A stretch of DNA of 17,746 nucleotides from Candidatus Helarchaeota archaeon (GTDB lineage Archaea; Asgardarchaeota; Lokiarchaeia; Helarchaeales; HEL-GB-A), in contig JAEOSY010000341.1 of the NCBI GenBank assembly GCA_016840125.1, forward strand, positions 1 to 17,746, in the 5' to 3' direction. This document shows, piece after piece, positions 3,075 to 12,400 of this stretch. The number at the start of each line of letters is the position of its first letter. The first letter of the stretch is position 1. Both the position numbers and the translations under genes were made by a program. Under the pieces are notes generated by a model that did no database searches, had not been told where the DNA came from, and worked only from the letters and a program-made list of their open reading frames with translations.

Positions 3075-3656
3075 ATGCAGCGAAAGCGACAAAAACTCAA
3101 TGAACTACGGGCTGAGAAATTAAAGGTCAGGAAAGGTTTTATTAAACAACTAATGAACCGACTAGTTCATATAGTCGCACGACACATACCAAATGGCTTT
3201 TTACGCACAAAACTTCATAGATTAAGAGGCGTCAGGGCAAGTAATAATGTGTGGATCGGAGCTGAAGTCTATATTGACGATGAAAATCCCAGTTTAATCA
3301 TTATTGAAGAAGGAGTTAGAATAGCCGCTAGCACAATCTTATTAGCTCATGGAAAAGACTTAGTTAATATCAAACCCGGGCAATATGCTTCAGAAATGCC
3401 ACTTCCAAAAGCTCCTATTATCATTAAAAAAGGTGCGTGGATTGGCTTACATGTGATTATTCTCCCAGGGATTGTCATTGGGGAGGGGGCAGCAGTAGCT
3501 AGTGGGAGTGTCGTGATGAGGGATGTGCCGGACTTTGCCTTTGTTGCAGGTAATCCCGCAAGGATTGTTCGACGATTACCCGAACCGCCAGATTTTAAAC
3601 CCCATCTCCCATACGTGAAATGGCCCAAAAAATTTCGGAAAGAGGAGCTTAAGTAA
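3075..3656 (+). CDS. Acyltransferase of the hexapeptide-repeat (left-handed beta-helix) family
   Basis: 193 residues. After a basic, helical N-terminus (about 1-50) come imperfect hexapeptide turns: NNVWIGAEVYID, LIIIEEGVRIAAST, then APIIIKKGAWIGLHVIILPGIVIGEGAAVASGSVV (about 114-148) and the family end motif VAGNPARIVRRL. Such proteins are trimers that move acetyl or other acyl groups from CoA (or ACP) to sugar hydroxyl or amino groups, and the C-terminal GNPA block is typical of the maltose/galactoside acetyltransferase and sugar O-acetyltransferase group. The likely acceptor is a sugar in surface glycan or glycolipid synthesis, but that is inferred. It stands alone on the + strand and converges with the phosphopantetheinyl transferase gene 27 bases away. 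It could work with the neighbouring acyl-ACP system, though nothing proves it. Confidence 0.85.
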   Translation: MQRKRQKLNELRAEKLKVRKGFIKQLMNRLVHIVARHIPNGFLRTKLHRLRGVRASNNVWIGAEVYIDDENPSLIIIEEGVRIAASTILLAHGKDLVNIKPGQYASEMPLPKAPIIIKKGAWIGLHVIILPGIVIGEGAAVASGSVVMRDVPDFAFVAGNPARIVRRLPEPPDFKPHLPYVKWPKKFRKEELK

Positions 3657-3683: not shown

Positions 3684-4499
3684 TCAACTAGTTTTCCTAA
3701 CCATCCCAACAAAAAAAGAATCTTTCGTAATAAAATCAGCTAAATAAATGTGATCTTTTATATCATAAAAAACGAATAGCTTTCCATTTTCATATTTAAT
3801 AACGAGGTCTTTAAAATCAACAGAAAGTCCAAGCCCGATCGCTTTTGATGTCGCTTCTTTAAGGCACCAAATTCCGGTTTTAAGAGAATCTTCTTTGATT
3901 TTATATCCTTTTTCTTCTGAGAAGTGATGGTATTCCTCTAAGTCTGAGGGGCTAAAAACATTCTTGGAGAATGTCGCTGAAAAAACCCGTCGGGTTTCAA
4001 TGTCAATACCAACTGGTTGGGAGAGAGAAGAAATTGAGCCGATCATACCTTTCTTGTGTGATATCGAAAAATTAATCGTCTTGAGCATTTCCTCTGCGGA
4101 GCTTAAAATTGAATTCAAAATTTTAAATTGAGGTTTTTTTGAAGAGTCACTATGTATTTCAATTTGATTCAAATCACTTACTTCTACTAGTATTGGTTTT
4201 AAACGTTCGAAAATTGCTATTTTAGCAAGTAATCTCCCGAAAAACCATTCTCTTTGTCTATAAGGATTTGAGAAGTTTTGAAGAATCGCCTTCTCTTCTA
4301 ATGTAAGGTTATCTTGATTTAATGCATTAAATTGATTATCAGATAACCTCATGCCCGAATTTCTAATATTTGTAGAATAAAATTTACAAAAATCACTAAT
4401 CCCTAGCTCTTTATCGGGGAGTTGATATGGGAGTATTGATTCTTCAGCTATATGCAACTTTTTTTTCAGATTTTCAATATAAGTTAAGGAATCGCTCAC
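3684..4499 (-). CDS. Sfp-type 4'-phosphopantetheinyl transferase
   Basis: 271 residues. It would transfer phosphopantetheine from CoA to the Ser of a carrier protein, giving the holo form. Family motifs are all visible: REWFFGRLLAK (83-93), SISHKKG (145-151), GIDIE (164-168) with the metal-binding Asp166 and Glu168, and WCLKEATSKAIG (211-222) with Lys214-Glu215. About 60 N-terminal residues precede the usual family start, making it longer than Sfp (about 224). The start is GTG with GGTG just upstream. It is divergent from the acyl carrier protein gene, with 115-127 bases between them, so it is almost surely the activating enzyme for that carrier. Sfp-type enzymes are mainly bacterial and eukaryotic, which supports lateral transfer of the block. 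Family assignment is firm. Confidence 0.92.
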   Translation of the reverse strand: MSDSLTYIENLKKKLHIAEESILPYQLPDKELGISDFCKFYSTNIRNSGMRLSDNQFNALNQDNLTLEEKAILQNFSNPYRQREWFFGRLLAKIAIFERLKPILVEVSDLNQIEIHSDSSKKPQFKILNSILSSAEEMLKTINFSISHKKGMIGSISSLSQPVGIDIETRRVFSATFSKNVFSPSDLEEYHHFSEEKGYKIKEDSLKTGIWCLKEATSKAIGLGLSVDFKDLVIKYENGKLFVFYDIKDHIYLADFITKDSFFVGMVRKTS

Positions 4500-4614
4500 A
4501 TTAACACCGGAGAACTAAAAGACCATACAGCTTCTATTACTTTTAATGAATAACAAATATACCAAAAATAAAAAAATAACGATTTCAGCTAGAAATAAAA
4601 TACAATTAAAATAG
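4500..4614. promoter_or_regulatory. Divergent promoter region between the PPTase and the ACP-led operon
   Basis: A very A/T-rich spacer that must hold both promoters. No clean TTTATA box is visible. For the + operon, AAATAAAATA around 4593-4602 is the best candidate and would give an almost leaderless mRNA. No obvious operator palindrome was found. Confidence 0.4.
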
Positions 4615-4626
4615 TTGAATTTGCCT

Positions 4627-4866
4627 ATGAGTAAATTAGACAAATTATTGGATTTAATATCAGAGGTATTTAAGATATCTCAAGCAGACCTCGAGGACGA
4701 ACTCACTCCCGAAGATATAGAAGATTGGGATTCCATTTCCCATATGGAGTTAATGGCGAAGTTTGAGGATGAGTGGGGGGTTACGTTCGATGTGGAGGAA
4801 TTAGTGGAAATGGAAACAATTGGGCTGATAAAAGAGGCCTTAATTCGTCATGGAGTTGAATTATGA
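4627..4866 (+). CDS. Acyl carrier protein
   Basis: 79 residues from the ATG at 4627 (a TTG at 4615 would add four residues). The protein is acidic and helical with the carrier signature DWDSISHMELM. Ser36, in DSI, is the phosphopantetheine attachment site. The length and the LEDELTPEDI...EEWGVTF pattern match the PF00550 carrier family. It would hold a thioester-bound acyl group for the enzymes downstream. It is the first gene of a six-gene operon and its TGA overlaps the next ATG (ATGA). Archaea mostly lack ACP-dependent fatty acid synthesis, and no ketosynthase, malonyl transferase or dehydratase is present here, so the carrier probably serves a dedicated tailoring or reduction pathway rather than chain elongation. 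No Shine-Dalgarno sequence precedes the start. Confidence 0.9.
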   Translation: MSKLDKLLDLISEVFKISQADLEDELTPEDIEDWDSISHMELMAKFEDEWGVTFDVEELVEMETIGLIKEALIRHGVEL

Positions 4867-6374
4867 ATCTTACAGAAGAAATTTTTAGGAAATCTCGTAA
4901 GGAAAATAAAATCGCGATTTTTCACCGGGACGATATTATAACGTATTCTGATTTATTCGATAGGATTTGCGGTGTAAAGGAAGAACTTAAAAGGTTAGGT
5001 TGTAAGAGAGGTGAAAAAGTAGCGATATTTGCTAATAATTCGATTTTTACAACTATTACATACTTCGGCATTATTGGAAATGGTAATGTAGCCATTCCAG
5101 TCTATCCAAGAATTGCTCAAAATGAGTTAAATTACATAATTCAAAGTTGTGAAGTTAAAACACTTTTTATTCAGAGAAACCTCCTTAAGCGATTTGAAGA
5201 GCGCGCGGCAGTGAAAATGCAAAATTATTTTTTTGATGATGAAATGGATGCACGCACAAGTGGTTTAACAGAAGAAGCCTATCAATTTCCGAAAATTGAT
5301 GAAAAAAAAGAAACAGCGGTAATTGTTTTCACTTCAGGATCCACGGGCATGCCTAAAGGAGTGATGATATCGCATCGCAACGTAGATGCCAATACAAATT
5401 CAATTATAGAATATTTAGGGCTTACGAAGAACGACCGGTTTATGGAAGTTTTGCCCTTCAGTTATTGTTATGGGACTTCTTGGCTTCATACACACATGAA
5501 AGTAGGGGGGCAATTGGTTATCAATAATCGTTTCATGTTCCCCCCAAAAGTATTGGATGAAATAAACGAGAAGGAATGCACCGGATTTGGAGGCGTTCCC
5601 GCGCATTTTCAGATTTTATTGAGAAGATCAAAAATTCAAGAAAGGAAATTTCCGTCGCTCAGGTTTATTGCGCAAGCGGGCGGAAAGTTAGCAAACACTT
5701 TCATCAAAGAATTGATGGAATTATTCCCTGATAAACATATTTTTATTATGTACGGTCAGACTGAGGCAACAGCGAGATTATCTTATCTGCCACCGGCTTT
5801 ATTGGAAGATAAATTGGGATCTATTGGCAAGGGAATTCCGGACGTTAAACTCCAAGTCTTAAATAAAGGGGGAAATCCAGTTGGACTTGATGAAATTGGA
5901 GAAATTGTGGCCGAGGGAGACAATATCATGCAAGGGTATTGGAAAGACCCCGAAGGAACCAAGAAAACTTTGAAAGATGGGAAATTATATACTGGAGATC
6001 TTGCAAAAGTGGATGAGGATGGATTTATCTTTTTAGTAGATCGAGAAAAGAATATTATAAAAAGCGGAGGGTATCGAGTATCTTCTAAGGAGATTGAAGA
6101 TATTATTTTTCAAATTCCAGAAGTGGTTGAGGCGGCGGTTATTGGTGTGCCTGATGACCTTTTAGGTGAAGCCATTAAAGCATTTGTGGTGCCGGTTCAA
6201 TCCGCTAAGAATTTAATAGATAAAGATTTTATAATTAATTATTGCAGGAAGGAACTCCCATCCTATAAAATTCCAAGATATGTGGAATTTTTAAAGGGAC
6301 TTCCCAAAAGTAGCTCAAATAAAGTTAGATATGAAGTTTTGAAGCAACAGGAAAGAAATAAAGCAGGTGCGTGA
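4863..6374 (+). CDS. Acyl-AMP ligase (acyl-CoA/acyl-ACP synthetase family)
   Basis: 503 residues of the adenylate-forming superfamily: P-loop TSGSTGMPKG (157-166), YGQTEA (297-302), YTGD (376-379), hinge region DREKNIIKSGGYRVS (393-407), and the C-terminal catalytic Lys487 in SSSNKVRY. It would activate a carboxylic acid with ATP to acyl-AMP and pass it to a thiol. The ATGA overlap with the upstream carrier gene makes holo-ACP the likely acceptor rather than CoA. The acid (fatty, isoprenoid or other) cannot be read from the sequence. The protein ends 8 bases inside the GTG-started form of the next gene, or 4 bases before its more likely ATG. Family is certain; the acceptor is inferred from context. 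Confidence 0.92.
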   Translation: MNLTEEIFRKSRKENKIAIFHRDDIITYSDLFDRICGVKEELKRLGCKRGEKVAIFANNSIFTTITYFGIIGNGNVAIPVYPRIAQNELNYIIQSCEVKTLFIQRNLLKRFEERAAVKMQNYFFDDEMDARTSGLTEEAYQFPKIDEKKETAVIVFTSGSTGMPKGVMISHRNVDANTNSIIEYLGLTKNDRFMEVLPFSYCYGTSWLHTHMKVGGQLVINNRFMFPPKVLDEINEKECTGFGGVPAHFQILLRRSKIQERKFPSLRFIAQAGGKLANTFIKELMELFPDKHIFIMYGQTEATARLSYLPPALLEDKLGSIGKGIPDVKLQVLNKGGNPVGLDEIGEIVAEGDNIMQGYWKDPEGTKKTLKDGKLYTGDLAKVDEDGFIFLVDREKNIIKSGGYRVSSKEIEDIIFQIPEVVEAAVIGVPDDLLGEAIKAFVVPVQSAKNLIDKDFIINYCRKELPSYKIPRYVEFLKGLPKSSSNKVRYEVLKQQERNKAGA

Positions 6375-6378
6375 GAAA

Positions 6379-7458
6379 ATGATTAAAAAAAGTATCATGG
6401 TTCCGCATATTTTCTTCGGTAACGAACTCTATATCGGAAAAGGGGGATTAATGACTCTTAAGTATATAGAGGAAGAAACCTTTCTAATTTTTGTATCGGA
6501 AGTTGTAAAAAAATTTGAGAATTACGCGAAAATTGAAAAATATATGGAAGGCAAATCCTACACAGAAGAAATTATTGAAAGTTCTACCGAAGAGATAATC
6601 TTAGAGATGAGGGATAAATACAAGAATTCAAAGTTGGATGTTATTGTTGCTGTTGGGGGAGGATCAGTCATAGACGTTGCAAAAATTACAAAGTTTTTAC
6701 TTGAAAATCCAGAGCATGATTTGGAAACACTGAAGAAAGAATGGTATAATCATAATCAGAAAATTAAATTAGTCGCTGTGCCTACGACACCAACCACGGG
6801 GTCTGAGGCGACATACACAGCCTTACTCAAAAACAATCAAAACGATAAGGTAGCTTACGTGAATCGTTCATTCATGCCAGACATCGCCATTTTAGACGTG
6901 AACTTTATAGCAGCGATCCCACTCGAAAAACTCATTCCCATGACCGCAGATATCTTTGGGCATGCCTTTGAAGGATATTTCTCAAGAGTAAGTAATGCTG
7001 TAACAAAAACACATGCAATTTCTAGTATTAAATTTTTAAAAGAGGGAATCGCGGGGCTCAAAAAGAACGAAAAAGATCTGAAAAGCCTTGAAAAAATATT
7101 AATAGCTGGGTATTTTGGGGGAGTAGCTGTAGGTAACGCCTTTGTGGGTGCATGTCATGCCTTAGCTCATACTGCAGAATCAAAAATAGATAGGGGACAC
7201 AGCACTATGATTTTAAATCTGATCAAACCAACGCTTACGTGGCACCAAAAACAAACAGAAAACGCAGAATACGGGAAATTTTTGAAGGATTATGAAGAAA
7301 TTGGCTATGATAAGTTTATAGAATCAGGAATTTTCGATGGATTAGACGCAGATTGGTGGGCGAACGCAGCTGCTAAAGATCCAGCAATTAAAACTAACTC
7401 GGTCCGTATGAAAGTGGATGCTGTGCTGGAGCTGGTCAATTGGATCAAGACCAAGTGA
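6379..7458 (+). CDS. Iron-containing (group III) alcohol dehydrogenase
   Basis: 359 residues from the ATG at 6379, which has AGGTG nine bases upstream; a GTG at 6367 overlapping the ligase gene would add four residues. NAD(P)-binding GGGSVIDVAK (93-102), VPTTPTTGSEAT (134-145), and the metal ligands Asp191 and His195 (MTADIFGHAFE), His260 and His274 (GACHALAHTAE...DRGH) are all in place, with the same 14-residue spacing between the last two as in FucO. The family reduces aldehydes to alcohols, or the reverse, at an Fe2+ centre. Lying between the acyl ligase and luxE-luxC genes, it most likely reduces the aldehyde released by LuxC to the alcohol. The end overlaps the start of luxE. Confidence 0.9.
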   Translation: MIKKSIMVPHIFFGNELYIGKGGLMTLKYIEEETFLIFVSEVVKKFENYAKIEKYMEGKSYTEEIIESSTEEIILEMRDKYKNSKLDVIVAVGGGSVIDVAKITKFLLENPEHDLETLKKEWYNHNQKIKLVAVPTTPTTGSEATYTALLKNNQNDKVAYVNRSFMPDIAILDVNFIAAIPLEKLIPMTADIFGHAFEGYFSRVSNAVTKTHAISSIKFLKEGIAGLKKNEKDLKSLEKILIAGYFGGVAVGNAFVGACHALAHTAESKIDRGHSTMILNLIKPTLTWHQKQTENAEYGKFLKDYEEIGYDKFIESGIFDGLDADWWANAAAKDPAIKTNSVRMKVDAVLELVNWIKTK

Positions 7459-8555
7459 TTAAAGAGATAATTGCAGCAAATCAATTCGAACTCTCTCAAA
7501 CGGAAAAAGAATCTAAGCTCCTTCCTATTTTTAAAGAACAAATTACCACCCAAGCTGAAAATTTGATTAATTTAAAATCATTTTATAACAAATTCAGAAT
7601 AGATCTCAGTAATCTAAATTCAATTAATGAAATTCCCCCCATCCCCGTGAATATGTTCAAAAAATTTGATCTCAGAACCTGTAAAAAAGAAGATGTTGTT
7701 CGAGTTCTGCACTCCAGTTCTACAAGCACAGGAATACCGAGTAAAATTTACATCGATAAAAAAACCGCATTTCGTCAGACGCGTTCATTCATCTCAACCA
7801 TTAAAAATTTCATTGGGAAAAAGAGAAGACCACTCCTGATAATAGATACGGAGGAGGTAAATAAAGCTGGTGCCGATACTATAACTGCTAGGGGCGCGGC
7901 CATCCGAGCAATAACAAATTATGCCACTAAAAAGTTATATGTATTAGATTTAAAGAATGGCGACTTGGAAGTAAAGTTTGAGAAACTCAAAGAATTCTGC
8001 GAGGAATTCGCCGGACAAGAAATTCTCGTTTATGGGTTTACATACATCATTTGGAGTAGGTTTTATCAAATCCTGAAAGAGCAGAATATGCAACTAGATT
8101 TCCCGCAGGTGAAAATCCTCCACAGTGGCGGCTGGAAAAAGTTAGTGCAACAAAAGGTGGATAAGAAGACCTTCAATTCAGAAATTGCGAACCTGTTTAA
8201 TACAGACCCACGAAATATTATAGACTATTATGGAATGGTAGAACAGGTAGGGGTTGTATTCGTTGATTGCGAAGAGGGATGGAAACATGTTCCCGATTTT
8301 GCAGATATTATAATTAGAGATTTCTATACAATGGAAGAAAACGACCCCAAACAACCAGGTCTAATTGAAATAATGAGTATTTTGCCGTCAAGTTACCCAG
8401 GGCAAGCCCTTTTGACTGAAGATGTTGGTGAAGTTATTGGAATTGATGATTGTCCATGTGGTCGGAAAGGCAAGTATTTCACATTCAAAGCAAGGGTAGA
8501 AAAGGTTGAATTACGTGGATGTGGAGATACATTCGCTGAAAGGAGGGGTGAATAA
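7440..8555 (+). CDS. luxE: LuxE-family acyl-protein synthetase
   Basis: 371 residues from a TTG start at 7440, which has GGAG eight bases upstream; a GTG at 7455 giving a GTGA overlap with the dehydrogenase stop is an alternative. LuxE is a compact adenylate-forming enzyme that activates a fatty acid as acyl-AMP and moves the acyl to its own C-terminal Cys, from which LuxC takes it. Visible are the adenylate loop HSSSTSTGIPSK (91-102), LHSGGWKK (227-234), YYGMVEQ (263-269), EDVGE (327-331), CPCGR (338-342) and the C-terminal ELRGCGD (357-363) with Cys361, at the place expected for the acylated Cys of LuxE. The stop and the luxC start share one base (TAATG), so the pair is translationally coupled, as in lux operons. 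No luciferase gene is present. Confidence 0.88.
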   Translation: MDQDQVIKEIIAANQFELSQTEKESKLLPIFKEQITTQAENLINLKSFYNKFRIDLSNLNSINEIPPIPVNMFKKFDLRTCKKEDVVRVLHSSSTSTGIPSKIYIDKKTAFRQTRSFISTIKNFIGKKRRPLLIIDTEEVNKAGADTITARGAAIRAITNYATKKLYVLDLKNGDLEVKFEKLKEFCEEFAGQEILVYGFTYIIWSRFYQILKEQNMQLDFPQVKILHSGGWKKLVQQKVDKKTFNSEIANLFNTDPRNIIDYYGMVEQVGVVFVDCEEGWKHVPDFADIIIRDFYTMEENDPKQPGLIEIMSILPSSYPGQALLTEDVGEVIGIDDCPCGRKGKYFTFKARVEKVELRGCGDTFAERRGE

Positions 8556-9859
8556 TGGCCATTCATGTTTTGTATTTTCAGAATAAATATTATAAATTGG
8601 ATGAAAAAATTGTTCCAGATTTCAAAGAAATACGCGCCCAATTGAAAAAGAGCCAGCTACAATTCAAAAAAATTCCGATTGAACAGCGGATGGATCTTTT
8701 TCAGCAATTTGGTAGAAATTTGCGTAGTGATAAAGAAATTAGGCAATGGGAGGGCGTCCCATTTTTATCAAATTGGCTTGGAAAGGGAAATCTAACAAAG
8801 ATTTTAATTAAAAATTTGGGATCACTTGAAATTCTAAAAGATTTTATTGGGGAAGGACAGAAAAAAACAAAGGCGCAGCCAAGAGGGTTGGTTTGTCACT
8901 ATATTGCGGGAAATGTACCTACTTTGGGACTCTTTTCACTGATCCAGTCCATGCTCGTTGGAAATTCTAACATCGTCAAGGTACCTCCCGTTAGTCAATT
9001 TACCTTTCTTGAATTGGTCAAAATCTTTGAAAAAACAGAGTCAAATGGGATAAAGGGAGCAGATATTTTAAAAACGGTGGCGGTCATACACATTCCTATC
9101 ACAGATGATGTCTCAAATTTGAAACTCTCTCTCATCGCAGATGCTCGTATCATGTGGGGTGGTCAGGAAGCCATTGATGCCATTTCTAAAACTACTAAAA
9201 TGACTCATTGTGATGATATCATATTTGGTCCTAAATATTCCTTTGGAGTCTTGGATAGGAAAGCCCAAGAATCGGAAGATTTCCCCAAATTAATTCGCCA
9301 ATTTGTAAATGACATCATCGTATTTGATCAGGGTGCTTGTTCATCCCCCCAAGTAATTTTCTTTGAAAAAGGATCCTTCGATTTACGAACCATCGGGCAA
9401 AAATTTGAAGAGGAATTTAAAATAGCTGCAAAGAAATTTCCCAAGATTTTAGTGGATCAATATTTAGCATCAAAAATTATCAATATTCGAGCGGATTATG
9501 CCCTCTCTCCAGAAAAGGATATCATTGCTTCCAAAGAAAACGATTGGACCGTCTTAATGGATAAGAATGTTCAACTTGAAGAGCCCGTGCAATCGCGTAC
9601 TATTTTCCTAAAAGAAATTGATTCGGTCATGGATTGTGTGGCTTTAATTACCCCACGCATTCAATCAATTGGGACCGCAATTTACGATAAAGAAAAATTG
9701 ATGACTTTCACGGATGCTGTAACCTACAAGGGAGTAGCACGTTGCATTTTACCGGGACAGATGAACTTTTATGATTCCCCTTGGGATGGTATTTTTATAT
9801 TAAATCGATTGGTGAGGTGGGTTACACTATATATGCCTAGAGAAGAAAATCTTCAATGA
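8555..9859 (+). CDS. luxC: LuxC-family acyl reductase (aldehyde-forming)
   Basis: 434 residues. LuxC reduces an acyl thioester to a long-chain aldehyde with NADPH in bioluminescent bacteria; relatives (PF05893) occur in non-luminous species. Motifs are AGNVPTLGLFS (118-128), WGGQEAI (201-207) and GACSSPQ (260-266), in which Cys262 is the catalytic nucleophile that takes the acyl group. The start has a strong AGGAGGGG (8541-8548) ribosome binding site, and the gene overlaps luxE upstream and the next gene downstream (ATGA). It is close to family length (about 480), slightly shorter. In this operon the acyl donor could be acylated LuxE, acyl-ACP or acyl-CoA. The aldehyde would then go to the iron alcohol dehydrogenase two genes upstream. 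Confidence 0.9.
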   Translation: MAIHVLYFQNKYYKLDEKIVPDFKEIRAQLKKSQLQFKKIPIEQRMDLFQQFGRNLRSDKEIRQWEGVPFLSNWLGKGNLTKILIKNLGSLEILKDFIGEGQKKTKAQPRGLVCHYIAGNVPTLGLFSLIQSMLVGNSNIVKVPPVSQFTFLELVKIFEKTESNGIKGADILKTVAVIHIPITDDVSNLKLSLIADARIMWGGQEAIDAISKTTKMTHCDDIIFGPKYSFGVLDRKAQESEDFPKLIRQFVNDIIVFDQGACSSPQVIFFEKGSFDLRTIGQKFEEEFKIAAKKFPKILVDQYLASKIINIRADYALSPEKDIIASKENDWTVLMDKNVQLEEPVQSRTIFLKEIDSVMDCVALITPRIQSIGTAIYDKEKLMTFTDAVTYKGVARCILPGQMNFYDSPWDGIFILNRLVRWVTLYMPREENLQ

Positions 9860-10404
9860 AAGGGGAAGATTATGTGGGGGAGAACCAAGATCGAAAGAGA
9901 TTATACGCTTTAATTATTAGTGGAATTTTTTTTGTGGGAATTGTTCCATTCCTCTGTATATTGCTCGCATTGTTTATTGATGCTCTCCTAAACTTTCCGA
10001 TTCTTTTTATTAATTTATTTAATCTCTTTATAGCACTCCCAGTTTTATCTGTTGGATTTCTTTGGGAGATTTGGGCAAATATTGCACTTTATCGAGAGGG
10101 GAAAGGCAGTCCAGTTCCCACGAGTGCAACTGAAACAATCCGGTTGGTGGAGATAGGACCATACCGATTTAGCAGAAATCCAATGATTTTTGGTTATATC
10201 CTTATGTTTATCGGTTTAGGTATCCTATTTAATTCTCTATCTCTATTAGTAATAATTTCACCAATCATTTTAGGATTGCTTATTCTCTATGTAAAATTTA
10301 GGGAAGAGGTAGATTTGGAATTACGATTTGGGGAAGCGTATAAGAAATATAAAAAGCGCAAATCGTTCATTATACCATGTTTCCCTGAAAAGAAACTGAA
10401 ATAG
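9856..10404 (+). CDS. Isoprenylcysteine carboxyl methyltransferase-like integral membrane protein
   Basis: 182 residues with about four or five hydrophobic helices. The C-terminal half has the ICMT/phospholipid N-methyltransferase-like pattern GPYRFSRNPMIFGY (101-114), Glu150-Glu151, and FGEAYKKYKKR (158-168), which form the S-adenosylmethionine site near the membrane face in that superfamily. In prokaryotes these proteins methylate lipids or other membrane-embedded acids or amines; few have a defined substrate. The ATG overlaps the luxC stop (ATGA), placing it last in the six-gene operon. This suggests it modifies the lipid product or its precursor in the membrane, which is inference. It ends five bases before the convergent deacetylase gene. 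Confidence 0.8.
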   Translation: MKGEDYVGENQDRKRLYALIISGIFFVGIVPFLCILLALFIDALLNFPILFINLFNLFIALPVLSVGFLWEIWANIALYREGKGSPVPTSATETIRLVEIGPYRFSRNPMIFGYILMFIGLGILFNSLSLLVIISPIILGLLILYVKFREEVDLELRFGEAYKKYKKRKSFIIPCFPEKKLK

Positions 10405-10409
10405 CTAGA

Positions 10410-11234
10410 TTACCAAACTTTAAATCGTTTAAAGTAATCGATCATAGACAAATTATCAATGTCACCTGTGAAACAGACGAGCGTCTCATCTTCATCCTTT
10501 TTGTAGAACCTTGAGAAAGATTCCTTCAATGATATTAAGGTATAATTTCTCTTTTGATTGATCTTTTTTATAAGCCCTTCAAGTATTTCAACGTATTTTG
10601 CCTGTCCCATTCTAATAGGATGCATGTCATAAACCAAGACACCCTTTTTGCCGAAATCTAGGGTTTCTGAAAACCGTCGTAGGATCTCATTATTGTTATT
10701 CAATTTAAGGTCATCAATGAGATAATCATCGGTAATACCCATGAAGGGCATAGAGGTAACCCCGCATTCATGTTTTACTGGATGCGGAGGAGGATTTTCA
10801 GCTCTGATTGAAGAATCATATAGAATGCCTAACTTTTTTTCATATTCAAAGAAGATTTCAGCATTATTGCTAATTTTCGTGAGACCATAGGGGGCCCTGA
10901 AAACCCATGGGTCTAGATTTTGTTTTTTAAAAACAATCACGGAATTTTTCATATCATTGAGGGCGGCACTTTTTCCAACTACCGTATAATCAAGATGGAG
11001 ATGACCATGCGGGGCAAAATCATGATTTTCAAAATGTTCATGGTAGTCCGGACGGTTTTCAATGAGATACGTGGAAATAAAGTAGGTCATTTTAGTGTCA
11101 TGTTTATCTAACACCTGATTGATTCGCCGGATTAGATTCACCATATTATCAGAAAATAAATTCAAATAATTAGCAATTTTTTTGATGAGAACCGGGAATC
11201 GCCTACTACGATACTTTAGTAATCTCCTAAACAC
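10410..11234 (-). CDS. NodB-like polysaccharide deacetylase family protein, atypical motif order
   Basis: 274 residues. Metal-type motif HGHLH (76-80), RAPYG (113-117), VYDMHP (201-206) and the preceding MTYFISTYL strand fit the polysaccharide deacetylase fold, which removes N- or O-acyl groups from sugars. The usual first motif (TFDDG, holding the catalytic Asp) is missing from the N-terminus, which begins only about 48 residues before the MTYFI strand. A very similar element, CFTGDIDNL (254-262), sits at the extreme C-terminus instead. The start is GTG, and an in-frame stop two codons upstream rules out extension. It lies 14 bases downstream of the DRG GTPase gene, so they may share a transcript. 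No signal peptide, so it probably acts in the cytoplasm or on a lipid-linked sugar. Confidence 0.7.
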   Translation of the reverse strand: MFRRLLKYRSRRFPVLIKKIANYLNLFSDNMVNLIRRINQVLDKHDTKMTYFISTYLIENRPDYHEHFENHDFAPHGHLHLDYTVVGKSAALNDMKNSVIVFKKQNLDPWVFRAPYGLTKISNNAEIFFEYEKKLGILYDSSIRAENPPPHPVKHECGVTSMPFMGITDDYLIDDLKLNNNNEILRRFSETLDFGKKGVLVYDMHPIRMGQAKYVEILEGLIKKINQKRNYTLISLKESFSRFYKKDEDETLVCFTGDIDNLSMIDYFKRFKVW

Positions 11235-11260
11235 GCATTAAACACCCATTAAGCACGCAT
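11231..11260. repeat. Short imperfect tandem repeat, about 11 bases x 3
   Basis: ACACGCATTAA, ACACCCATTAA and GCACGCATATT follow each other at the 3' end of the GTPase gene and across the GTG start of the deacetylase gene. Slippage is a simple explanation. It may have created the current GTPase C-terminus or the deacetylase start. Confidence 0.45.
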
Positions 11261-12400
11261 ATTAATTTGAACGACATCAAAATCTTGTAATGAGTAGTCC
11301 AAACCCACTCTCCATTTTCGTTTTTCCACAGTGGGGAGAACATCGGTTTCTTCTTTGGTGGCATGCTGCACAAAGGCATAGCGAAAGCGCTCTACAAAAT
11401 CCCGATGGATTCTTCCAGCCACAAAGCGCACATCGGACTCCCTAGGAACGATGAGGGGTTCGATTAAATCCGCTTTGGACCCTTTAGGTTTTAGATAAAT
11501 TCTGATTAAATCTAGTTTTCGAAATATTTCATCTTTTAATACATCAATATTCATACCAGTTTCAGCAGAGATGCGGATTATCTGGCGTCCTTCCCTTTCT
11601 AGCTCTTCAAGGAACTTTTCTTGCTCAGGTGTAGCTATATCCATTTTGTTACAGACCACTAAAGACGTAATATATGCGCAATTACCGTTGAAATAATCGA
11701 TTAAATCGTCAGGAGTGATGTCTTGGTGCGCAACGATGAGTGCATTCACAATTTTAAATTCCTGGCAAATTCCCCGTGCCATTTCAAGTGTCATCTGTGT
11801 GAGTGGGACAGTGGAGTTGAGCGCAATACCCCCGGATTTCAAATAGGATACGGAAATCAACGGAGGAAAGCGGTCCAACCGCACTCCAATATTATATAAC
11901 TCATCAAGTATGGTTTTATACTGGAAATGAGGCAGGTTCCATATATCTAACATAATCAGAATTAGGTTTGAAGTTTTGGCTACCGCAAGGATACGCTTCC
12001 CAAGTCCTTTTCCATCCGAGGCACCCTTTATGATCCCCGGGAGGTCTATCACCATGATTCGGGCGTGTTTATATTCCATCAATCCGGGAATCGCGTCCAG
12101 CGTCGTAAATTCATATGCGGCCACCTTCGACTTCGCGTTAGTAATCTTGTTGAGGAGAGTGGATTTGCCCACTGACGGGAATCCGACTAAGGCGACATTT
12201 GAATCTCCCGTTTTTTTAACATCAAAAGTTGGACCGCCGGAAGATCTACCAATCCCTTCAAATATTCGATCCATTTTTTGGCGCTCTAATTTCGCAATCT
12301 GTGCTTTTAATTGGCAAATAGACTTCATAGTGTGTTTATTGACGGCAGTTTGCCTCAAACGCTCTTTTAGCTCATTAATCCGTTCCTGGTAATCAACCAT
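11249..12400 (-). CDS. drg: DRG/Rbg-family GTPase with C-terminal TGS domain
   Basis: 383 residues, full length for the family. An N-terminal helical region (1-60) is followed by the G domain: G1 GFPSVGKST (73-81), YEFTTL (96-101), G3 DLPGIIKGA (119-127), G4 NKMD (251-254) and G5 SAE (278-280), then the TGS domain (about 300-380) ending RVGLDYSLQDFDVVQI. The insertion between G3 and G4 is typical of DRG and differs from Obg. The family is conserved in archaea and eukaryotes and associates with ribosomes. In eukaryotes it works with a DFRP partner to relieve stalled translation, and a partner is not seen here. The ATG at 12400 has a TATA-like box about 60 bases upstream on the - strand. This housekeeping gene is the strongest indicator that the host is archaeal. 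Confidence 0.95.
   Translation of the reverse strand: MVDYQERINELKERLRQTAVNKHTMKSICQLKAQIAKLERQKMDRIFEGIGRSSGGPTFDVKKTGDSNVALVGFPSVGKSTLLNKITNAKSKVAAYEFTTLDAIPGLMEYKHARIMVIDLPGIIKGASDGKGLGKRILAVAKTSNLILIMLDIWNLPHFQYKTILDELYNIGVRLDRFPPLISVSYLKSGGIALNSTVPLTQMTLEMARGICQEFKIVNALIVAHQDITPDDLIDYFNGNCAYITSLVVCNKMDIATPEQEKFLEELEREGRQIIRISAETGMNIDVLKDEIFRKLDLIRIYLKPKGSKADLIEPLIVPRESDVRFVAGRIHRDFVERFRYAFVQHATKEETDVLPTVEKRKWRVGLDYSLQDFDVVQINMRA

Follow-up and report, generated by a model that had tools for sequence, protein, structure and literature searches.

The window, a 17,746-nucleotide stretch of contig JAEOSY010000341.1 from a Candidatus Helarchaeota archaeon, carries a gene cassette of the Lux acid-reduction type. 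It encodes an acyl carrier protein (ACP), an acyl-AMP ligase, an iron-type alcohol dehydrogenase (Fe-ADH), a LuxE-type acyl-protein synthetase and a LuxC-type reductase, next to a divergent gene for an Sfp-type 4'-phosphopantetheinyl transferase (PPTase) (Table 1). From the ACP gene through an ICMT-like gene behind LuxC, consecutive genes overlap by 1 to 19 bases. A first-pass annotation had read these seven genes as a complete module for the reduction of carboxylates, equipped with an ACP and a PPTase of its own and set in an archaeal context, and had placed no ketosynthase, luxD or luxAB in the window. All seven genes were recovered at their coordinates, with the overlapping ends and with a Pfam match for each; the archaeal origin held as well (see below), and none of the three missing functions turned up among the 20 window proteins scanned.

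Table 1. Cassette genes and adjoining genes in the window (positions in nucleotides).
Feature	Position	Strand	Match and remarks
LbH (left-handed beta-helix, hexapeptide) acyltransferase	3075..3656	+	PF00132; proposed acceptor-side enzyme
Sfp-type PPTase, divergent	3684..4499	-	PF01648, 58.9 bits
ACP, Ser36 in DSxxHM	4627..4866 (alternative TTG start 4615)	+	PF00550, 29.3 bits
Acyl-AMP ligase, proposed ACP loader	4863..6374	+	PF00501, 245.5 bits; PF13193
Fe-ADH, proposed aldehyde to alcohol step	6367..7458	+	PF00465, 102.4 bits; PF25137
LuxE-type acyl-protein synthetase, Cys361	7440..8555	+	PF04443, 214.5 bits
LuxC-type reductase, Cys262	8555..9859	+	PF05893, 241.4 bits
ICMT/PEMT-like membrane methyltransferase	9856..10404	+	PF04191, 39.2 bits; start overlaps LuxC end
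Polysaccharide deacetylase family protein	10410..11234	-	PF01522
DRG-like GTPase	11249-12400		Downstream of deacetylase gene

The catalytic residues singled out by the first-pass annotation were present and proved near-invariant in relatives. In the loci compared, window included, the ACP serine was kept in 64/64 and LuxE Cys361 in 67/67, while LuxC Cys262 was kept in 81/82, the exception being a piece of a split open reading frame (ORF). The Fe-ADH metal ligands were kept in 31/32 (D195) or 30/32 (H199, H264 and H278). At E 0.01, the solved relatives of LuxC and LuxE were chains A and E, respectively, of the LuxC/LuxE complex 7xc6, with both nucleophilic cysteines aligned; LuxE also gave a weak match to a phenylacetate-CoA ligase structure. 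The best PDB match of the PPTase was Sfp (1qr0, E 0.00027), and G164, D166, E168, W211, E215 and K219 were invariant in 7/7 aligned Asgard sequences.

The contig looks like that of a Helarchaeota-type Asgard archaeon, with the cassette native to it. Among 227 Asgard genomes searched, the DRG-like GTPase of the contig was 76% identical to its counterparts in the Helarchaeota genome G001 and in G090, the next full-length match being 51% and fragments reaching 55%. Window LuxC matched three Helarchaeota-named proteins at 80, 73 and 65% identity; in a tree it fell with them and the L001 locus into a five-row group (support 100*), neighbored by a Loki/Sigyn group (support 91, not starred). In L001 the cassette sits within a 1.48 Mb Helarchaeota contig, and LuxC and LuxE are also named for the cultured Lokiarchaeum ossiferum and Promethearchaeum (Prometheoarchaeum) syntrophicum. 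Bacterial contamination or a chimeric assembly could be suspected from the nearest named bacterial genus among the matches listed, which was Clostridium (LuxE, 55-60%), but the GTPase and LuxC identities, the long L001 contig, the cultured Asgards and the placement of the Asgard LuxC rows on one side of a branch (weak support, 30) make this extremely improbable.

A profile scan of genome contigs with LuxC gave 218 relatives. The 80 best of them, together with the window, formed a set of 81 loci from Asgards, other archaea, Clostridium and other bacteria. Genes were counted within seven genes of LuxC, and the counts are lower bounds since several contigs end close to LuxC. The ligase was found in 74/81 loci, LuxE in 67/81 and ACP in 64/81, and all four core genes were together in 62/81, so the ACP and ligase do travel with LuxC and LuxE, a linkage that the first-pass annotation had proposed to check. 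Fe-ADH occurred in 29/81 loci, AcpS-type PPTase in 13/81 and Sfp-type in 7/81. A short-chain dehydrogenase/reductase (SDR) was found in 17/81; since Fe-ADH and SDR were together in only 3/81, they look like alternatives for one step. Hexapeptide transferases accompanied 19/81 loci and MaoC proteins 11/81. The contiguous order ACP-ligase-LuxE-LuxC was seen in 41/81 loci, and the window's own order, with the dehydrogenase between ligase and LuxE, in 13/81, from Asgards, Aenigmarchaeota, Nanoarchaeota, Woesearchaeota, two candidate-phyla bacteria and one Chloroflexi bin. Neighboring core genes were also found fused, dehydrogenase to LuxE in L002 and LuxE to LuxC in eight loci (L030, L047, L052, L056, L062, L063, L064 and L071), and precomputed domains place SDR-type domains together with LuxE and LuxC in one protein (P0353). 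The first-pass annotation had counted the ICMT-like gene as part of a six-gene unit; it had a homologue in 0/80 related loci (some contigs stop soon after LuxC) and was rejected as a core part. The conserved unit is therefore five genes plus the PPTase.

The cassette is not unique to the window, and its distribution among Asgards is patchy. PF05893 matched 62/227 Asgard genomes at E 0.001 (52 above cut-off), and a strong LuxC together with a cassette-type ACP was found in seven (G001, G002, G003, G004, G047, G164 and G165), with the ligase on the other strand in G047 (L009). An eighth strong LuxC match, in G091, had no ACP or ligase within the 19 kb read, and G090, close to the window by its GTPase, gave no LuxC match. 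Counting the window, 6/8 cassette loci of Asgards had the hexapeptide family. Gene set, order, catalytic residues, linkage and distribution are all matters of direct observation.

Other LuxC-like genes were encountered alongside. A second Asgard LuxE-LuxC pair (L112, L113, L115 and L119) has a longer LuxC (553-573 aa) and is preceded by a 437-456 aa gene, with FIST domains in L115, the one scanned; G001 holds both this and the cassette type. A third LuxC-like type of ~487 aa (L094-L096, L098, L100-L104, L106 and L116) stands mostly with a 406-475 aa, weakly LuxE-like partner; L116, the one scanned, gave no Pfam match. In two plasmid matches (H1 and H4) a ~360-aa 'long-chain fatty acid--CoA ligase' adjoins an acyl-CoA reductase; nearby lies an SDR or 3-oxoacyl-ACP reductase, and no ACP is annotated within 7 kb.

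The layout of the cassette corresponds to that of bacterial glycan-acylation genes. In Vibrio cholerae O1, VC0248 to VC0252 encode, in this order, an ACP, a ligase, an Fe-ADH, a LuxE-LuxC fusion and a hexapeptide transferase; the tetronate biosynthesis genes of this organism were reportedly the subject of work by Morona et al. in 1995. The window has the same order with a linked LbH transferase, but its LuxE and LuxC are separate where the Vibrio proteins are fused; it adds a PPTase and an apparently permuted deacetylase (see below), its host is an archaeon, and no perosamine genes were seen among the scanned window proteins. The perosamine of V. cholerae O1 carries 3-deoxy-L-glycero-tetronate as its N-acyl group, tetronate synthesis has been assigned to VC0248-VC0252 (rfbKLMNO / wbeKLMNO), and an in-frame wbeL (VC0249) deletion was devoid of O1 antigen (PMC3441752). 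The gene roles given above agree with the name RfbN that its source gives to a Magnetococcales relative of the fused L063 protein, and with four fused Vibrio relatives among the matches listed (42-43% identity over 99-100%). The LuxC alignment had picked up the L063 protein, and its RfbN homology runs through this named relative. The window thus shows the gene order, the RfbN-type LuxE-LuxC homology and the linked LbH acyltransferase of an rfbKLMNO-type locus.

Flagellin-glycosylation islands hold the same families. Those of Aeromonas group II contain an ACP, a 3-oxoacyl-ACP reductase, an AMP synthetase, LuxE and LuxC as a set (PMC7874193), and several Enterobacteriaceae island types contain the same protein families (PMC4875605); both groups of authors suggest a liposugar. 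The islands share the ACP, AMP ligase, LuxE and LuxC families within a glycan locus, but have FabG, an SDR, in place of the window's Fe-ADH, and in Aeromonas pseudaminic acid (Pse) genes and glycosyltransferases lie adjacent. A 376.14 Da sugar and a 102 Da unit have been described there (PMC7874193); by arithmetic, Pse with one acetyl replaced by dihydroxybutanoyl would weigh 376.148 Da and C4H6O3 102.032, with other formulas possible. By comparison with luxCDE of luminous bacteria, whose substrate is a long-chain acid, the LuxC and LuxE families and their cysteine positions are the same, but the window proteins fall far under the NCBIfam cut-offs (LuxC 125 versus 750, LuxE 74 versus 550), and the luxD and luciferase (luxAB) genes that would stand beside luxC and luxE are, as noted, absent from the scanned window proteins. 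Nor was the ketosynthase of type II fatty acid synthesis found with the ACP; in the cassette genomes compared below, the full-length PF00109 matches lie on other contigs, and the PF08545 matches are of unclear kind.

The cassette is accordingly real, native to its host and conserved, with a layout that corresponds to tetronate and flagellin-glycosylation cassettes, and the view that such an assembly had not been described gave way to these precedents. The first-pass annotation had itself allowed for bacterial contamination or membership of a known O-antigen pathway; the former is disfavored, and the latter largely turned out to be the case. It differs from the known cassettes in its archaeal setting, the accompanying PPTase and the apparently permuted deacetylase. 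A literature search of partial coverage gave no paper on this cassette in Asgards among the matches listed, a search on hydroxybutanoyl sugars did not confirm the sugar chemistry assumed here, and a term search for the cassette in a paper on clostridial pseudaminic acids (PMC13317340) gave no match.

Neighboring genes were compared by a domain scan of 136 of 147 listed neighbors, 89 from 13 non-Asgard archaeal loci and 47 from 7 Asgard loci. Among the 25 of 85 families listed for the non-Asgard loci were 12 hexapeptide transferases, 10 PPTases, 7 SDRs, 5 DegT aminotransferases, 5 group 1 and 4 family 2 glycosyltransferases, 4 GFO/IDH proteins and 3 polysaccharide deacetylases. The Asgard loci had, among the 25 of 58 families listed, 5 hexapeptide proteins, 4 MaoC, 3 DUF354, 2 epimerases, 2 family 4 glycosyltransferases and 2 ACPS. 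A different setting was found in Clostridium: in 21/26 loci there was a gene family whose one member scanned proved to be a 4-hydroxybutyryl-CoA dehydratase (1u8v, 810 bits), together with CoA-transferases (4-hydroxybutyrate CoA-transferase, 3eh7) and a sigma-54 activator family; L007 additionally encodes succinate CoA-transferase, an enzyme similar to SucD and an Fe-ADH, and a gamma-aminobutyrate transaminase is present in L020. Five clostridial loci lack the dehydratase, and three of them (L013, L018 and L026) end within ~3 kb of LuxC. These dehydratase and CoA-transferase clusters were absent from the 20 archaeal loci. The dehydratase family beside the cassette points to C4 acids, but not to glycans.

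Two further features of these neighborhoods were recorded: a split transketolase directly 3' of the cassette and its SDR in Methanoregula (L041:12221-14055), and an Eco57I/PglX-like DNA methylase family of ~585 aa just 5' of the cassette in eight Clostridium loci (cluster c18; L031:5291-7045).

The ligase offers a hint to the substrate. Besides the adenylation motifs it has Arg305, four residues past the E of YGxTE, a position that lines the acyl pocket of adenylation domains (PheA 331). An Arg at E+3 or E+4 was found in a ligase of 74/74 ligase-bearing loci, and in only one (L069) of the four second ligases (L057, L068, L069 and L077). In G001, which has 25 distinct AMP-ligase ORFs, a few of them overlapping pieces, the Arg was present in the cassette ligase and in one of the 24 others (L138, E+3). 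The alignments listed from a PDB search with the ligase profile were all to nonribosomal peptide synthetases. Judged from the sequence, the pocket Arg would fit a diacid better than a fatty chain.

According to the literature, archaea have neither ACP nor the enzymes that process it, a few transfers excepted (PMC3533463). Ten archaeal genomes with the cassette, possibly incomplete, were compared for ACP, PPTase and ketosynthase content. A cassette-ACP model, trained on several of these genomes' own sequences, gave exactly one match in each of the 10. The Pfam PP-binding model, which misses even the cassette ACP in G002, G004 and G164, found no second ACP in 9/10; the exception was G047, with four more matches in a contig resembling a polyketide synthase (PKS) locus. 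PF01648 gave one match in 8/10 genomes, at the cassette in seven and in the PKS-like contig in G047; G003 and G165 had none above threshold, yet carried a diverged gene of the same cluster (c31) at their cassettes. Full-length PF00109 was present in only two (G047 and G164), on contigs other than the cassette's, so there is no sign of ordinary FabF-dependent fatty acid synthesis in 8/10.

Separately, giant ORFs of ~3300-3800 aa with PP-binding domains, often several, were seen in G016 (contig C1, L117:3390-13937), G094 (L118:3088-14475) and other Asgards. The L117 ORF, the one scanned, has ketosynthase, acyltransferase, three ACP, ketoreductase, partial dehydratase and NMO domains and a C-terminal PPTase, and resembles a polyunsaturated fatty acid or iterative polyketide synthase with built-in PPTase.

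Next to the cassette lie the LbH acyltransferase and deacetylase genes, which probably belong to the system. The window's acyltransferase has a homologue in L001 (208 bits). Its deacetylase has HGxxH and FRAPY in the N-terminal half and GDIDN at the C-terminus, and in all 10 such proteins aligned (window, L001 and eight loci described below) HG(Y/H)xH, FRAPY and HPIR precede the C-terminal GDIDN. The usual NodB motif order is different, and the window-type deacetylase thus appears to be circularly permuted.

Both flanking families recurred in a second ACP context. The cassette-ACP model matched 43/227 Asgard genomes: the seven with cassettes, G104 (L170, with ACP, ligase and PPTase and no LuxC in the 18 kb read), three weak matches (G016, G180 and G183) and a further 32 with E below 1e-12, of which eight were examined (L171-L178). 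In all eight the ACP adjoins a 604-630 aa FkbH-family protein (PF21211 in the two scanned, phmmer in the other six), and an AcpS-type PPTase (PF01648 in the two scanned, phmmer in the others), an LbH transferase (78-112 bits to the window's) and a deacetylase (53-80 bits) are present. In a control of 39 Asgard loci with LuxC-like genes, of which 30 span at most ~4 kb, the LbH and deacetylase families occurred only in L082 and L086, themselves cassette loci. No second ACP of the FkbH-module kind was found by the cassette-ACP model in the seven cassette genomes. FkbH enzymes load glyceryl from 1,3-bisphosphoglycerate onto an ACP; the FkbH-ACP-AcpS module with deacetylase and LbH protein may therefore be a glyceroyl-ACP system, sharing with the cassette a small ACP-bound hydroxyacyl group and the flanking pair, and differing in that one FkbH-family protein replaces ligase, LuxE, LuxC and dehydrogenase. 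Because the homologous pair recurs in 8/8 FkbH loci, the LbH and deacetylase genes beside the window's cassette seem to form the acceptor side of a system that either module can supply with acyl groups.

We consider it somewhat probable (roughly 0.6) that the window holds a tetronate-type, rfbKLMNO-like cassette acting on a C4 diacid. The substrate, the order of the steps (including which ligase acts first) and the acceptor are what we infer here. The PPTase would arm the ACP, and the ligase would join one carboxyl of a small diacid, most likely malate, possibly succinate, to it. LuxE would activate the other carboxyl on its cysteine and hand it to LuxC for reduction with NAD(P)H to the aldehyde, which the Fe-ADH, or an SDR in other loci, would reduce to the alcohol. 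The product would be a hydroxyacyl-ACP, such as 2,4-dihydroxybutanoyl (3-deoxy-tetronyl)-ACP, as reduction of the far carboxyl of malate gives 3-deoxy-tetronate. The deacetylase may then free an amino group on a sugar of a surface glycan, to which the LbH acyltransferase would attach the acyl group.

Several observations weigh against this assignment. A tested substrate was not seen for any archaeal cassette, no glycosyltransferase was among the window genes scanned, and housekeeping families, each seen once, occur among the Asgard neighbors (TatD, proteasome and ERCC4, for example); the clostridial neighborhood looks catabolic and not glycan-related. Among Asgard cassette loci the deacetylase was found only in the window and L001, and L003-L006 have longer LbH proteins that are only distantly similar (30-38 bits). 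The pocket Arg also occurs in another G001 ligase and in the second ligase of L069, and the Aeromonas mass match is arithmetic only, the paper not tying the 376 Da sugar to the lux genes. Finally, PF08545 (KAS III type) matched in 7/10 cassette genomes, with most of the 80-position model covered in G003, G164 and G165 (ORFs of ~500 aa), and a KAS III-like enzyme is thus possible there; since Methanocaldococcus and Sulfolobus control genomes match too, these proteins may instead be HMG-CoA-synthase-like.

The presence of two types of ATP-dependent ligase, and of C4/4-hydroxybutyrate genes beside the clostridial cassette, could also mean two parallel branches, with ligase and ACP making one acyl donor and LuxE, LuxC and dehydrogenase a separate free hydroxy acid or alcohol (e.g., 4-hydroxybutyrate from succinate), which the ligase may then load. 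This is unlikely, as the four core genes stay together in most loci and are in part fused or overlapping, which favors one pathway. The clostridial dehydratase, CoA-transferase and sigma-54 activator families, and the L007 gene set, would equally suit a module of central metabolism that handles short acids, with a catabolic or redox role unrelated to glycans. That is likewise unlikely: the clostridial clusters do not extend to the archaeal loci, which have LbH acyltransferases and, outside Asgards, sugar enzymes instead.

The first-pass annotation had favored a fatty or isoprenoid alcohol for lipids. Lux homology, with its long-chain substrate, and the membrane ICMT-like gene overlapping LuxC speak for such a product; it is nevertheless unlikely, because the gene order matches the tetronate genes and the flagellin islands hold the same families. 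The scarcity of full-length PF00109, the ligase Arg, the glycan contexts outside Asgards and the lack of conservation of the ICMT-like gene also stand against it, and context and pocket suggest instead a diacid that is small and polar, and an acyl group for a glycan.

Beyond the C4-diacid assignment, we put forward a wider proposal, to which we give a little less than even odds: in several archaea, Asgards included, the ACP would exist for acylation of surface sugars, with one ACP and usually one PPTase per genome, most of these genomes having yielded no FabF-type ketosynthase. Asgards would have two interchangeable supply modules, mutually exclusive in the genomes searched, which feed related pairs of permuted deacetylase and LbH acyltransferase, ligase-LuxE-LuxC-ADH with a C4 hydroxyacyl group and FkbH with a C3 glyceroyl group. 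If the cassette does the same job as in bacteria, some archaea use ACP for sugar decoration rather than fat synthesis, keeping ACP, PPTase and acid-reducing cassette where a FabF-type ketosynthase was not found. This would explain a gene set labeled 'acyl-CoA reductase' and 'acyl-protein synthetase' in the sources, and would offer a way into the acylated surface sugars of Asgards, including the two cultured lineages.

Elsewhere in the window, two similar-looking 144-aa proteins without a Pfam match, both of membrane type, are encoded as a tandem pair at 1963-2397 and 2438-2872 on the minus strand.

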